NCBI GenBank assembly: GCA_035764005.1
Contig: DASTZZ010000025.1
Location: 62,001 to 126,000 of the forward strand
Length of the DNA: 64,000 nt
Source: Terriglobales bacterium
GTDB taxonomy: Bacteria; Acidobacteriota; Terriglobia; Terriglobales; Acidobacteriaceae
Reading direction: 5' to 3'
Shown here: positions 52,709 to 56,151 of the stretch, piece by piece
Position numbering within the stretch: the stretch's first letter is position 1
Layout: every line of letters starts with the position of its first letter
The notes under the pieces: generated by a model
Database searches by the model: none
Seen by the model: the letters and a program-made list of their open reading frames with translations, nothing else
What the model was told of the DNA's origin: nothing
Program-made: the position numbers and the translations under genes

Positions 52709-54037
52709 TCATCCCACAGCAACTTCGGTGGCATTGAGCTCGTGTTTAAACTTTCGAGCACGAGCACCGATGTATTGGCTAACGCATTGTCCTTTACCCA
52801 CGAGAATGTACTTGTACGTAACCAGTCCTTCCAGTCCTACCGGACCTCGGGCGTGCAGTTTGCCCGTCGCGATGCCCACTTCGGCTCCGAAGCCATAGCG
52901 GTATCCATCGGAGAAACGCGTTGAGACGTTGTGAAACACTCCCGCGGAGTCAACTTCAGCCAGGAACTTTTCGGCCGTTTGTTGATCCTCGGTAATGATC
53001 GAGTCGGTGTGATGCGATCCGAAGTGGTTGATATGCGTAATTGCCTCGTCGCAGCTTTCGACCACGCGCAAGGCGAGCGTGAGGGATCCATATTCGGCGT
53101 GCCACTCGCTCTCTTTCACGAGATCGATTCCATTGCCGCAAATGGCCCGGGTGCGCTCGCAGCCTCGGACTTTCACTCCCCCGAGTTGAAGCAACTCCAC
53201 CAATCTCGGAAGAAAGTCGTTTGCAATGTTGCGGTGAATGAGAACGGTTTCGACTGCGTTGCAGGTTGCGGGCGCCTGAATTTTGCTGTCGAGAATCACG
53301 GAAGTAGCCAGATCGAGATCAGCAGCAGCATCGACGCAGACGTGGCACACACCGTCTGCATGCCCAAGCACCGGAATCCGTGTATTGGCTGAGATGAAGC
53401 GGACCAGTTCTGAGCTTCCACGAGGCACCACCAGATCGATGTACTGATCCAGTTTCAAAAGCTCGCGCAGTTCTTCCCTGCTCTTCACATTAGTGAGCGC
53501 ATCAGCCGGAATTCTGGCGCGTTCATATGCGCTCTTGAAAATTCCAAGGAGTATTTCAGTGGTTCGAGCGATCTCCACACCGGCTTTGATCATGAGCGCG
53601 TTACCGGACTTAAACGCGAGGGCTGACAACTGCACCACAGCGTCCGGGCGCGCTTCAACTACCGCAGCGATCACTCCGAAAGGGCACGATATTTTTGTGA
53701 GTTCCAGTCCATCGTCCAATTCGGATTGATGAAGAATTTTTCCGACTGGGTCCTCCAGACCGCTCACAGCATTCACACTTCGAGCCATCTGCGAGAGCTT
53801 CTCTTCATTGAGAGTCATGCGGGCGAGAGCAGACGAGGAGATTCCATCCTGACTAGATCCATTTCTGGCTGCAATTACATCCTGACGATTCGCTTCGAAA
53901 ATGGTCTCAGCGGATTGTTCGATCTCGGCAGCAACGGCTTCAAGGACCTGCTGCTTCGCTTCTGGGGCTAATGCCGCAAGCTGGCGCGAGGACTGCTTCG
54001 CCGCGACAGCTGCGCTCTGTGGATTTGTATGAGTCAT
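52709..54037 (-). CDS. proA: Glutamate-5-semialdehyde dehydrogenase ProA
   Basis: 442 aa, about 20 longer than usual at the C-terminus. It reduces gamma-glutamyl phosphate to the semialdehyde for proline synthesis. FGVIAAVVEARPDAVVQLSALAFKSGNAL, VPRGSSELVRFI and the catalytic cysteine in IQAPATCNAVETVLIH are visible, with GPVGLEGLVTYKYI near the end. Its ATG overlaps the proB stop by ATGA. Confidence 0.97.
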   Translation of the reverse strand: MTHTNPQSAAVAAKQSSRQLAALAPEAKQQVLEAVAAEIEQSAETIFEANRQDVIAARNGSSQDGISSSALARMTLNEEKLSQMARSVNAVSGLEDPVGKILHQSELDDGLELTKISCPFGVIAAVVEARPDAVVQLSALAFKSGNALMIKAGVEIARTTEILLGIFKSAYERARIPADALTNVKSREELRELLKLDQYIDLVVPRGSSELVRFISANTRIPVLGHADGVCHVCVDAAADLDLATSVILDSKIQAPATCNAVETVLIHRNIANDFLPRLVELLQLGGVKVRGCERTRAICGNGIDLVKESEWHAEYGSLTLALRVVESCDEAITHINHFGSHHTDSIITEDQQTAEKFLAEVDSAGVFHNVSTRFSDGYRYGFGAEVGIATGKLHARGPVGLEGLVTYKYILVGKGQCVSQYIGARARKFKHELNATEVAVG

Positions 54038-54825
54038 TTCACCTCCACGGAAGCGACTAACGTTCCAATCTGGTCACCACTCAAAATTCTCTCCAGAACA
54101 TCTGGCGTGCGGCCGTTCGCAATTACAGCTACTGTGTGGCGTTCGCGCGTCGCATGGATTGCGGCTTTCACTTTGGCCCGCACACCACCGCGGCCATTGC
54201 GGCTTTCGCCATTCGCTTCCACGTGTTCGCCCTGGAGTTCGGAAATCAACGCTGCCTCGGGATCCTCTGGATGAAGGTCATAGACGCCATCCACATCGGT
54301 GAGAAAGACGAGCAAATCAGCATGAAGTTCGCGCGCGATCAGCGATGCGAGCATATCGTTCTCGGAGAATGCGCGGGCGGAGTCGCTTTCGACCTGGGAA
54401 CCGCTGATCGCATCGTTCTCATTGAGAATTGGTAATGCTCCGGCCTCGATCAGATGCTGAAGAGTTTGGATCAGCTTTCTACTGCGGGAGGGCGTCGCGA
54501 AATCTTCGGCTGTGACCAGAATTTGACCCACGTGGATGCTGTGCGAACGGAAGGCTTGCTGATATACGGAGGTCAGAACGCTTTGCCCGGTTGCCGCACA
54601 CACCGAAACCAATTGATGGGAAACTCCAAGTGCACTAGCTCCGATTCCGACCGCTCCCGAGGAGACAAGCACTACACGACATCCGCGCGAGCGTAGTCGT
54701 GCGATCGATGTCACTAATCGGTCCAATACTTCATTCGCAACCGAGCCGTCTGCGCCGATCAACACCTTGGTTCCAACTTTAACGACTATGTCATCGGCAT
54801 TGGCTAATCTGTTTCGAATCGTCAT
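54034..54825 (-). CDS. proB: Glutamate 5-kinase ProB, short form without PUA domain
   Basis: 263 aa, the amino-acid kinase domain only: VVKVGTKVLIG, VVLVSSGAVGIGASALG, LPILNENDAISG, FSENDMLASLIARELHADLLVFLTDVDGVYD, and RGGVRAKVKAAIHATRERHTVAVIANG. Enterobacterial ProB has an added PUA domain (about 367 aa); this one resembles the shorter bacterial type. It phosphorylates glutamate, the committed and proline-inhibited step. GGAG lies 6 bases before ATG 54825. The leader upstream carries an attenuator. Confidence 0.96.
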   Translation of the reverse strand: MTIRNRLANADDIVVKVGTKVLIGADGSVANEVLDRLVTSIARLRSRGCRVVLVSSGAVGIGASALGVSHQLVSVCAATGQSVLTSVYQQAFRSHSIHVGQILVTAEDFATPSRSRKLIQTLQHLIEAGALPILNENDAISGSQVESDSARAFSENDMLASLIARELHADLLVFLTDVDGVYDLHPEDPEAALISELQGEHVEANGESRNGRGGVRAKVKAAIHATRERHTVAVIANGRTPDVLERILSGDQIGTLVASVEVK

Positions 54826-54851
54826 TCCAATCTCCGTCTAAGCAGAAACAA

Positions 54852-54884
54852 AAAGGCCCACAGTCTCTGCGACCGTGGGCCTTT
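54852..54884 (-). terminator. Attenuator terminator 27 bases before proB
   Basis: On the minus strand AAAGGCCCAC (54884-54875) and GTGGGCCTTT (54861-54852) form a perfect 10-bp stem with a 13-base loop. TTTTTGTTT follows directly. This is a canonical rho-independent terminator and it faces toward proB, so transcription entering proB must pass it. Confidence 0.88.
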
Positions 54885-54934
54885 GGGATGATTGCGCTTT
54901 ATCTATTCACAAAGTCATTTCCCAAAGCGGTCGC
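54869..54934 (-). promoter_or_regulatory. Antiterminator pairing of the proB leader
   Basis: GCGACCG-C-TTTGGG (54934-54921), inside codons 19-23 of the leader ORF, can pair with CCCAAA (54887-54882) and CGGTCGC (54875-54869). That is 13 bp in two blocks around an internal loop. It consumes the 5' arm of the terminator (54884-54875) from both sides, so the two folds exclude each other. A ribosome stalled at the upstream Pro codons would leave 54934-54921 free; one reaching the stop at 54915 would cover it. Confidence 0.78.
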
Positions 54935-54989
54935 GGCGTACCGGTGACGGGCACGGGTTCGGCGATGGCGTTGAGAAAACCTGACTCAT
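54915..54989 (-). CDS. ProB leader peptide, 24 aa, alternating proline
   Basis: The ORF reads MSQVFSTPSPNPCPSPV and then seven more residues ending FGK. Proline occurs at 8, 10, 12, 14 and 16, five of nine consecutive residues and five of all 24. Its stop is 31 bases before the terminator stem begins. The peptide is non-hydrophobic and would have no other obvious role. No ribosome binding site is seen; a promoter at 55028-55000 would put the transcript start 3-4 bases before the ATG, which suits leaderless translation. It is probably the ribosome-stalling sensor of an attenuator. Confidence 0.78.
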   Translation of the reverse strand: MSQVFSTPSPNPCPSPVRRDRFGK

Positions 54990-54999
54990 GAATGAACTA

Positions 55000-55028
55000 A
55001 TTTTCCGGAATAGAAAGAACTTTGTCAA
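55000..55028 (-). promoter_or_regulatory. Promoter candidate for the proBA leader
   Basis: A perfect -35 TTGACA (55028-55023), a 17-base spacer and GAAAAT as -10 (55005-55000, four of six matches). The start would fall near 54993, just in front of the leader ATG at 54989. It separates proBA transcription from the GHMP kinase gene, which ends at 55087. Confidence 0.6.
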
Positions 55029-55086: not shown

Positions 55087-56151
55087 TCAGGATTGACTTA
55101 CGACAGTTACTCCATCGGGATTCACACGAAATGGCAGCACGCGGCCGCCGTTCTTGTGAATCGCCTCCGCCACGGAATCGTGACTACCCTCGCGAACGAA
55201 TAAGACGAAACAACCGCCACCGCCGGCTCCACAGACTTTTGCAGCCACTGCTCCCTTTCGCTTTGCGGCTGCGATCAGTTTCTCGATGAGCGGTGTGCTA
55301 ATTCCCGGAGCATTCGTGCGGCGAAGCTTCCATTCTTCACCAAGCAGCCTTCCCACTTCGGGCCAGTCGCCGGATTCGAGAGCCGCATGCATGGAGCGGG
55401 CGATCTCGCCGATTTGCTGGAAGTTGCGAAACACGCGCTTGTCGCCGTTGATGTGCGCCTTGAATACTTCCCAATTGTTGATTCCAGATTGCCGCGGAGC
55501 TCCCGTATAAACGAGCACAAATCGAGACTCAATGTCCTCGGGCGCGACGGCGATTGACTGGCGATGGATTCCATCTACGTCCAGATGAATCGCGTTCACT
55601 CCACCATAGAGAGCGGGATAGTAGTCCTGGCATCCTGTCGGGACCTTGATGAGTTGCGCTTCAACGTTCTGAGCGATCTGCCGAATCTGTTCGCGATCGA
55701 GCTGGCGTCTGTTGTAGCGCGCCAGAGCGGCAACGGTTGCGACCATCAGCGCGGACGATCCCGAGATCCCCGCCCCTGCCGGCGATTCCGAATTGGTTTC
55801 TATCGTGAATCCACGGCCATTTGCCGGACCTGCAGGCATGAAGAAATGAATGAGATGCGCGGCCAGATGATGCTGGACTTTCTTTGCCCGGCAAAACTCG
55901 TCGAAATCGCGGAAGTGATCTTCGCGGCCAGTATCGATGGATTTGAAATGGATGGAAGCGTCACGACCGGGAATGATCTGGCAGCGGGTGAGAATGTTTA
56001 CCGCAAAATTAACCGTCACAGCTCCGGGGTGAAAGAGATACAAGGGCCAGAGATCGAGCGTACTGCCGGCGAGGTCGACTCGACAGGAAGCGTGGGCAAC
56101 GATGTCAGCGGTTGCAGGCTGTGGTTGAGAAGAAGCTAAGGATTTCGGCAT
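55087..56151 (-). CDS. GHMP-family sugar kinase
   Basis: 354 aa. N-terminal HASCRVDLAGSTLDLWPLYLFHPGAVTVNFAVN and the ATP-binding SPAGAGISGSSALMVATVAAL are the GHMP signature. GCQDYYPALYGGVNAIHLD resembles heptose/fucose kinase family members, and VCGAGGGGCFVLFVREG near the end is motif 3. It phosphorylates a sugar or sugar phosphate, possibly a heptose 7-phosphate or galactose-like substrate for cell-envelope use. Its ATG overlaps the accA stop by one base (TGATG). Confidence 0.88.
   Translation of the reverse strand: MPKSLASSQPQPATADIVAHASCRVDLAGSTLDLWPLYLFHPGAVTVNFAVNILTRCQIIPGRDASIHFKSIDTGREDHFRDFDEFCRAKKVQHHLAAHLIHFFMPAGPANGRGFTIETNSESPAGAGISGSSALMVATVAALARYNRRQLDREQIRQIAQNVEAQLIKVPTGCQDYYPALYGGVNAIHLDVDGIHRQSIAVAPEDIESRFVLVYTGAPRQSGINNWEVFKAHINGDKRVFRNFQQIGEIARSMHAALESGDWPEVGRLLGEEWKLRRTNAPGISTPLIEKLIAAAKRKGAVAAKVCGAGGGGCFVLFVREGSHDSVAEAIHKNGGRVLPFRVNPDGVTVVSQS

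Follow-up and report, generated by a model that had tools for sequence, protein, structure and literature searches.

What controls proBA in a soil acidobacterium whose proB gene is preceded by a short, proline-rich open reading frame (ORF) and a terminator? The usual account of proline synthesis has it regulated through ProB feedback or, in Bacillus, by a T-box. A sequence-only reading of the locus had proposed that the ORF encodes the leader peptide of a ribosome-mediated attenuator. We analyzed the whole stretch of DNA that contains the locus (64,000 nucleotides, referred to here as the window) together with related genomes, and our computations covered the ORF with its promoter spacing and terminator, the alternative pairing, the conservation of these features, and the match between sister elements and their amino acids. 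Our sequence data strongly suggest that the proBA leader is a ribosome-mediated transcription attenuator, which would respond to proline. It is very probable that the Pro-rich ORF and the terminator work jointly as a switch for proline shortage in this organism.

A proline-rich leader ORF precedes proBA

Read along the minus strand, positions 54825-55028 of the window comprise a sigma-70-like promoter, then an ORF of 24 codons in which five Pro codons alternate with others, a terminator, and finally proB. The ORF (54915..54989, minus strand; MSQVFSTPSPNPCPSPVRRDRFGK*) carries Pro at residues 8, 10, 12, 14, and 16, as the sequence-only reading had noted, and these residues are encoded by CCA CCG CCG CCG CCG (54942..54968, minus strand). 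Homologous ORFs are present in the congeners L003, L004, and L005. A promoter had been placed at 55028-55000, and we found there a predicted -35 box (TTGACA, 55028-55023), a 17-nt spacer, and a -10 box (GAAAAT, 55005-55000) on the minus strand. Downstream, proB (54034..54825, minus strand; glutamate 5-kinase, 263 aa) matches TIGR01027 just over the cut-off and has a Shine-Dalgarno sequence, GGAG (54832..54835, minus strand), 6 nt 5' of its ATG, while proA (52709..54037, minus strand; glutamate-5-semialdehyde dehydrogenase) matches NF001221 and TIGR00407. Short ORFs (10-50 aa) with at least five Pro in ten residues occur six times on both strands of the 64-kb window, and among them the proB leader ORF alone has a P.P.P.P pattern and it alone is followed by a terminator. 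As expected of an attenuator, the proB leader repeats codons for the amino acid that its operon produces (26 curated proB leaders).

Terminator and predicted antiterminator of the proBA leader

An intrinsic terminator (regions 3:4; 54852..54884, minus strand) lies between the leader ORF and the first gene, again as expected of an attenuator. It has 14 pairs and a 5-nt loop followed by TTGTTT (dG -25.7), and it ends 26 nt before proB; the sequence-only reading was right about its presence but gave it 10 bp and a distance of 27 bases. Region 2, the 5' strand of the antiterminator (GCGACCGCUUUGGGA, codons 19-24; 54920..54934, minus strand), is predicted to pair with region 3a (UCCCAAAG; 54881..54888, minus strand), which overlaps the 5' arm of the terminator, and with region 3b (CGGUCGC; 54869..54875, minus strand), which lies inside the terminator 5' arm and loop. 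The resulting antiterminator comprises 15 bp with a 5-nt bulge (54934-54920 with 54888-54881 and 54875-54869). An antiterminator that would block the terminator had been described at this site, and the pairing held up with an extent slightly larger than first proposed.

Folding of the leader RNA, suggested earlier as a check, agreed with this arrangement. When the RNA from just past the control codons through the terminator 5' arm was folded, the predicted antiterminator of the window, GCGACCG-CUUUGGGA : UCCCAAAG-gccca-CGGUCGC, had an energy of -26 kcal/mol (z -3.3), and 0/200 shuffles were as good. The minimum-energy fold switches to the terminator when the 3' arm is included. The sequence right after the control codons is predicted to form an antiterminator that is mutually exclusive with the terminator, although single-register covariation in the genus g111 is not significant. 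Single-sequence folding also predicts a candidate 1:2 hairpin over the Pro codons (CGUGCC-7-GGUACG; 54937..54955, minus strand), which might act as an anti-antiterminator or a pause hairpin.

We found support for the antiterminator in relatives as well. Its energy compared with shuffles gives z -3.7 to -3.8 in congeners and z -3.5 and -3.6 in two distant lineages, and the energy of the duplex between regions 2 and 3 is below that of shuffles in most lineages (combined z approximately -6.2 over eight); by the same measure, lineage L151 has no significant antiterminator. The inner helix reads UUUGGG:CCCAAA in the window versus UUGGAG:CUCCAA in a congener, so that pairing is kept through two double changes. 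In g111, 68.5% of cells pair in the named structure in a single register versus 31-44% when the register is slid, while the corresponding covariation score is no better than that of shuffles. The antiterminator was missed by consensus folding of MAFFT alignments, and RNAalifold returned the terminator only. A pairing register that changes from one subclade to the next is the apparent reason for the weak covariation and for the RNAalifold result. Since folding did not find the antiterminator and covariation was not significant despite high pairing, we adopted pairing energy relative to shuffles; swaps of region 2 between lineages discriminate only partly in the GC-rich g111.

Conservation of proB leaders in Acidobacteriota

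The sequence-only reading had made its proposal depend on conservation in relatives, and the ORF, promoter spacing, terminator, and antiterminator all recur in the genus and in the phylum. Within the genus of the window, 4/6 genomes contain proB and all four, the window included, contain the leader. The three congeners share the order of promoter, ORF, and terminator with the window, and they match it in promoter spacing and in the terminator AAGGCCCACGGTC, while peptide and RNA sequence are quite different (VKLQTLIPSPLPCTPPVYLRPRDWSERFHDA and two close variants versus MSQVFSTPSPNPCPSPVRRDRFGK in the window). The genes upstream of the leader also differ between the congeners and the window. 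An insert of approximately 240 bp separates the terminator from proB in L003 and L004 and is absent from the window and L005; its ends, ACTGTCATCCTGA / TCAGGATGACAG, are MITE- or REP-like.

Overall, we curated 26 Pro leaders ahead of proB from five families of Acidobacteriota. Further leader peptides include MMIFPNLSLLPCPPARSVGLPWKRSAETK (L012), MASSGSPMPCCCPPCPRRHTGGWGL (L021), MVLQVPNPLPTAGAPRPEAMPCVWTLAAS (L121, another family), MDTKHHTQPQSRLPRVAQTAQAVPCPRRRRTSSRLGSV (L126), MHLALDLRRSPAPAPARRPRLPDRLGSCIA (L152), and MTSAAVRPASPRPSHLGAPERVPSA (L151). In g111, a Pro leader of 22-23 codons (type MIPVVTINPRPSHPITGRPVGGL) precedes proB in 16/16 proB-bearing genomes surveyed. A codon-by-codon comparison of 14 equal-length g111 leaders found Pro throughout at two core positions, where its codons vary synonymously: 124/263 single-base differences at the Pro-core codons are synonymous (47%), versus 51/244 and 47/188 in the other frames (21-25%). 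The control codons are therefore under coding constraint, as an attenuator predicts. An alignment of relatives, also proposed by the sequence-only reading, bore out the conserved Pro-rich ORF and terminator but yielded no significant single-register covariation in g111.

Not every proB gene has a leader of this kind. An unbiased scan detected leaders in 18/106 proB upstream regions versus 1/106 reverse complements and 6/1060 dinucleotide shuffles, and most proB genes in the window's own family are without one. A wider contig scan mainly brought up proB genes from haloarchaea and other distant organisms, and these had no leaders. Five pattern hits (L037, L061, the longer ORF of L128, the GTG ORF of L142, and L156) were rejected as chance on reading. 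In the order as a whole, proB was matched at 1e-25 in only 79/298 genomes. The genes proB and proC co-occur in the genus of the window, with both in 4/6 genomes and neither in 2.

Promoter spacing suggests leaderless translation

Since the start codon in the window sits 10 nt 3' of the -10 box, the leader mRNA is predicted to be leaderless, and the spacing between promoter and start thus favors the earlier suggestion of a near-leaderless transcript. Promoter-like hexamers with 16-18-nt spacing and a start codon 6-11 nt past the -10 box, mostly exactly 9, were found in 26/26 curated Pro leaders, where for L012, L021, L129, and L130 the in-frame start was chosen to suit the promoter spacing. The near-constant spacing is informative because the fitting let the distance from -10 box to start range over 3-14 nt. 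These data suggest that proB leaders may be translated leaderless from a predicted transcription start, and the near-constant spacing makes leaderless leader translation testable beyond Actinobacteria.

Leaders matched to other amino acid genes

A second Pro leader is present in the genome of the window ahead of proC (L254:1296-1443), where MFLRSFNPPIPCPPPACARWCGWMEDA is accompanied by a terminator and a predicted antiterminator (z -3.1; z -3.9 to -4.4 in congeners). A similar promoter stands immediately 5' of its start codon, again a predicted leaderless layout. A Pro leader of this predicted layout, with a terminator, also precedes proC in L252, L253, and L255. In the genome of the window, proC probably shares the type of control proposed for proBA. 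The genome also contains a His leader, MRQLHHHRHYHHVANVSADRL, with a terminator ahead of hisI-hisG, approximately 450-520 nt before hisG (L211), for which Rfam gave no match. Congeners carry MSSLRHHRHHHHAANVSAELSSE-like peptides ahead of hisI-hisG, and His leaders are found in L207-L210 as well. For trpE and ilvB in the genus of the window we found no leader peptide with a terminator; ilvB closely follows another gene. As side observations, the string GCAATCA(T) stands directly before the terminator in several Pro and His leaders of Terriglobia (54900-54885 in the window; L012, L021, L207-L210), and L208:3452-3555 has a weak match to the molybdenum-cofactor riboswitch (34 bits versus a gathering threshold of 36) that is cut by the end of the locus.

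In a blind search, a covariance model trained solely on the proB leaders of g111 was run over 297 genomes of the phylum and gave additional strong hits in g111-type genomes, which belong to a different acidobacterial family from the window. All 25 strong hits that were read (25/25) precede proC (HPRPST), pheA (FFFSF), or asnB (NRNTNR) (L232-L251, L256-L260). Weaker hits include YYW before DAHP synthase (L263, L264, L265, L269), ISMISI before ilvA (L271), and, in another family, LFLIVLVLVI before a dihydroxy-acid-dehydratase-like (ilvD-like) gene (L266). The identities of proC, pheA, and asnB were confirmed by NCBIfam, while DAHP synthase, ilvA, and ilvD were named by eye from sequence. The weak hits L261, L262, L267, L268, L270, L272, and L273 were set aside as ordinary terminators or chance.

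The matching of leader codons to the gene below fits control by tRNA charging rather than chance. Because a second Pro leader stands at proC and amino-acid-matched leaders stand elsewhere, control by cognate tRNA charging is supported, and together with the conserved layout these leaders strengthen the attenuator interpretation of proBA. As of 2010, almost no predicted attenuator in Acidobacteriota had an assigned function (PMC2965389). Leaders matched to amino acids across the phylum appear to be undescribed there, and the Asn leader on asnB seems undescribed too. We consider it likely that Acidobacteriota hold a set of undescribed ribosome-mediated attenuators, of which at least the Pro class is leaderless, and that these cover Pro (with proBA and proC forming one regulon), Asn (asnB), Phe, aromatic amino acids (DAHP synthase), His, and Ile, with the Pro and Asn classes being new as leader peptides on their own biosynthetic genes.

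Proposed mechanism and alternative explanations

From these features we infer the transcription start, translation, stalling, and proline response of the proBA leader. Transcription would begin at, or a few nt from, the leader start codon, and a ribosome would initiate the leader peptide without a Shine-Dalgarno sequence. With plentiful prolyl-tRNA the ribosome would reach the stop codon and cover codons 19-24 (region 2), the terminator (54884-54852) would form, and transcription would end ahead of proB. With scarce prolyl-tRNA the ribosome would stall at Pro codons 8-16 and leave region 2 free to pair with the terminator 5' arm, and proBA would be transcribed. Since region 2 consists of codons 19-24, a ribosome that has reached the stop codon would mask it and one on the earlier Pro codons would not, a geometry suggested by known ribosome footprints. 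A point against is that stalling at the last Pro codon would place the ribosome partly over the antiterminator.

The same RNA switch might instead be set by slow X-P peptide bonds, through limiting EF-P or nascent-chain arrest, rather than by uncharged tRNA-Pro. The alternating Pro codons and their partly conserved neighbors (PRPSHP in g111, PC in Terriglobia) would suit this, and in Salmonella the Pro-codon leader mgtP regulates mgtCBR, there via proline-charged tRNA (PMC3641672). Against it, the codons in sister elements of like build (Phe, Asn, His, Tyr/Trp, and Ile) correspond to the genes downstream, and RNA pairing of the Pro-codon region can account for the conserved neighbors, which makes slow peptide bonds an improbable signal here. 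The P-x-P-x-P design allows tRNA shortage to be separated from the intrinsic slowness of proline.

We give very little weight to the hairpin being a mere terminator of the upstream GHMP-kinase-like gene (55087-56151) beside a chance Pro-rich ORF. That gene shares the strand of the leader and stops approximately 100 nt 5' of it, but a predicted promoter lies between the two, congeners keep the leader behind other upstream genes, and the chance controls are low for both the ORF count in the window and the scan of proB upstream regions. Control of proBA by another leader RNA switch (T-box, riboswitch, or protein-bound leader), with an incidental ORF, draws on the T-box that governs proBA in Bacillus. 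No Rfam family, T-box included, matched the window at E up to 1, and in 12 relatives nothing relevant was matched, with the T-box unmatched at E up to 0.5. Such a switch is also hard to reconcile with the coding constraint on the Pro core and with sister elements codon-matched to their genes, and we regard it as highly improbable.

Comparison with known systems

Our search of the open-access literature turned up no leader-peptide attenuator of proBA, proC, or asnB (a report in a subscription journal is possible), in line with the earlier statement that none was known for proBA. An attenuator of this kind at proBA and proC would add a missing amino acid to those sensed in this way. The Bacillus proBA T-box resembles the present leader in operon, in its uncharged tRNA-Pro signal, and in transcription attenuation, but it binds tRNA directly and has no leader peptide, and the present locus has no T-box match. 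Low charged tRNA-Pro leads to more transcription at Salmonella mgtP (PMC3641672). The mgtP and mgtA leader ORFs share with the proBA leader a Pro-codon ORF in the leader, whereas they serve magnesium transport and virulence genes, have a Shine-Dalgarno sequence, and use adjacent Pro codons. Actinobacteria offer known, partly tested examples of leaderless leader peptides (Corynebacterium glutamicum ilvBNC; Streptomyces lividans trpL and leuL), with the start codon at or one nt from the transcription start and no ribosome binding site (PMC11857589; PMC8079986); they concern other amino acids in another phylum, and the start site of the proBA leader is a predicted one. Like the his, trp, leu, ilv, thr, and pheA leaders, the proBA leader combines a short ORF of cognate codons with mutually exclusive antiterminator and terminator before a biosynthetic operon; unlike them, the proBA and proC leaders use Pro, in alternating rather than tandem codons, and are found in Acidobacteriota.
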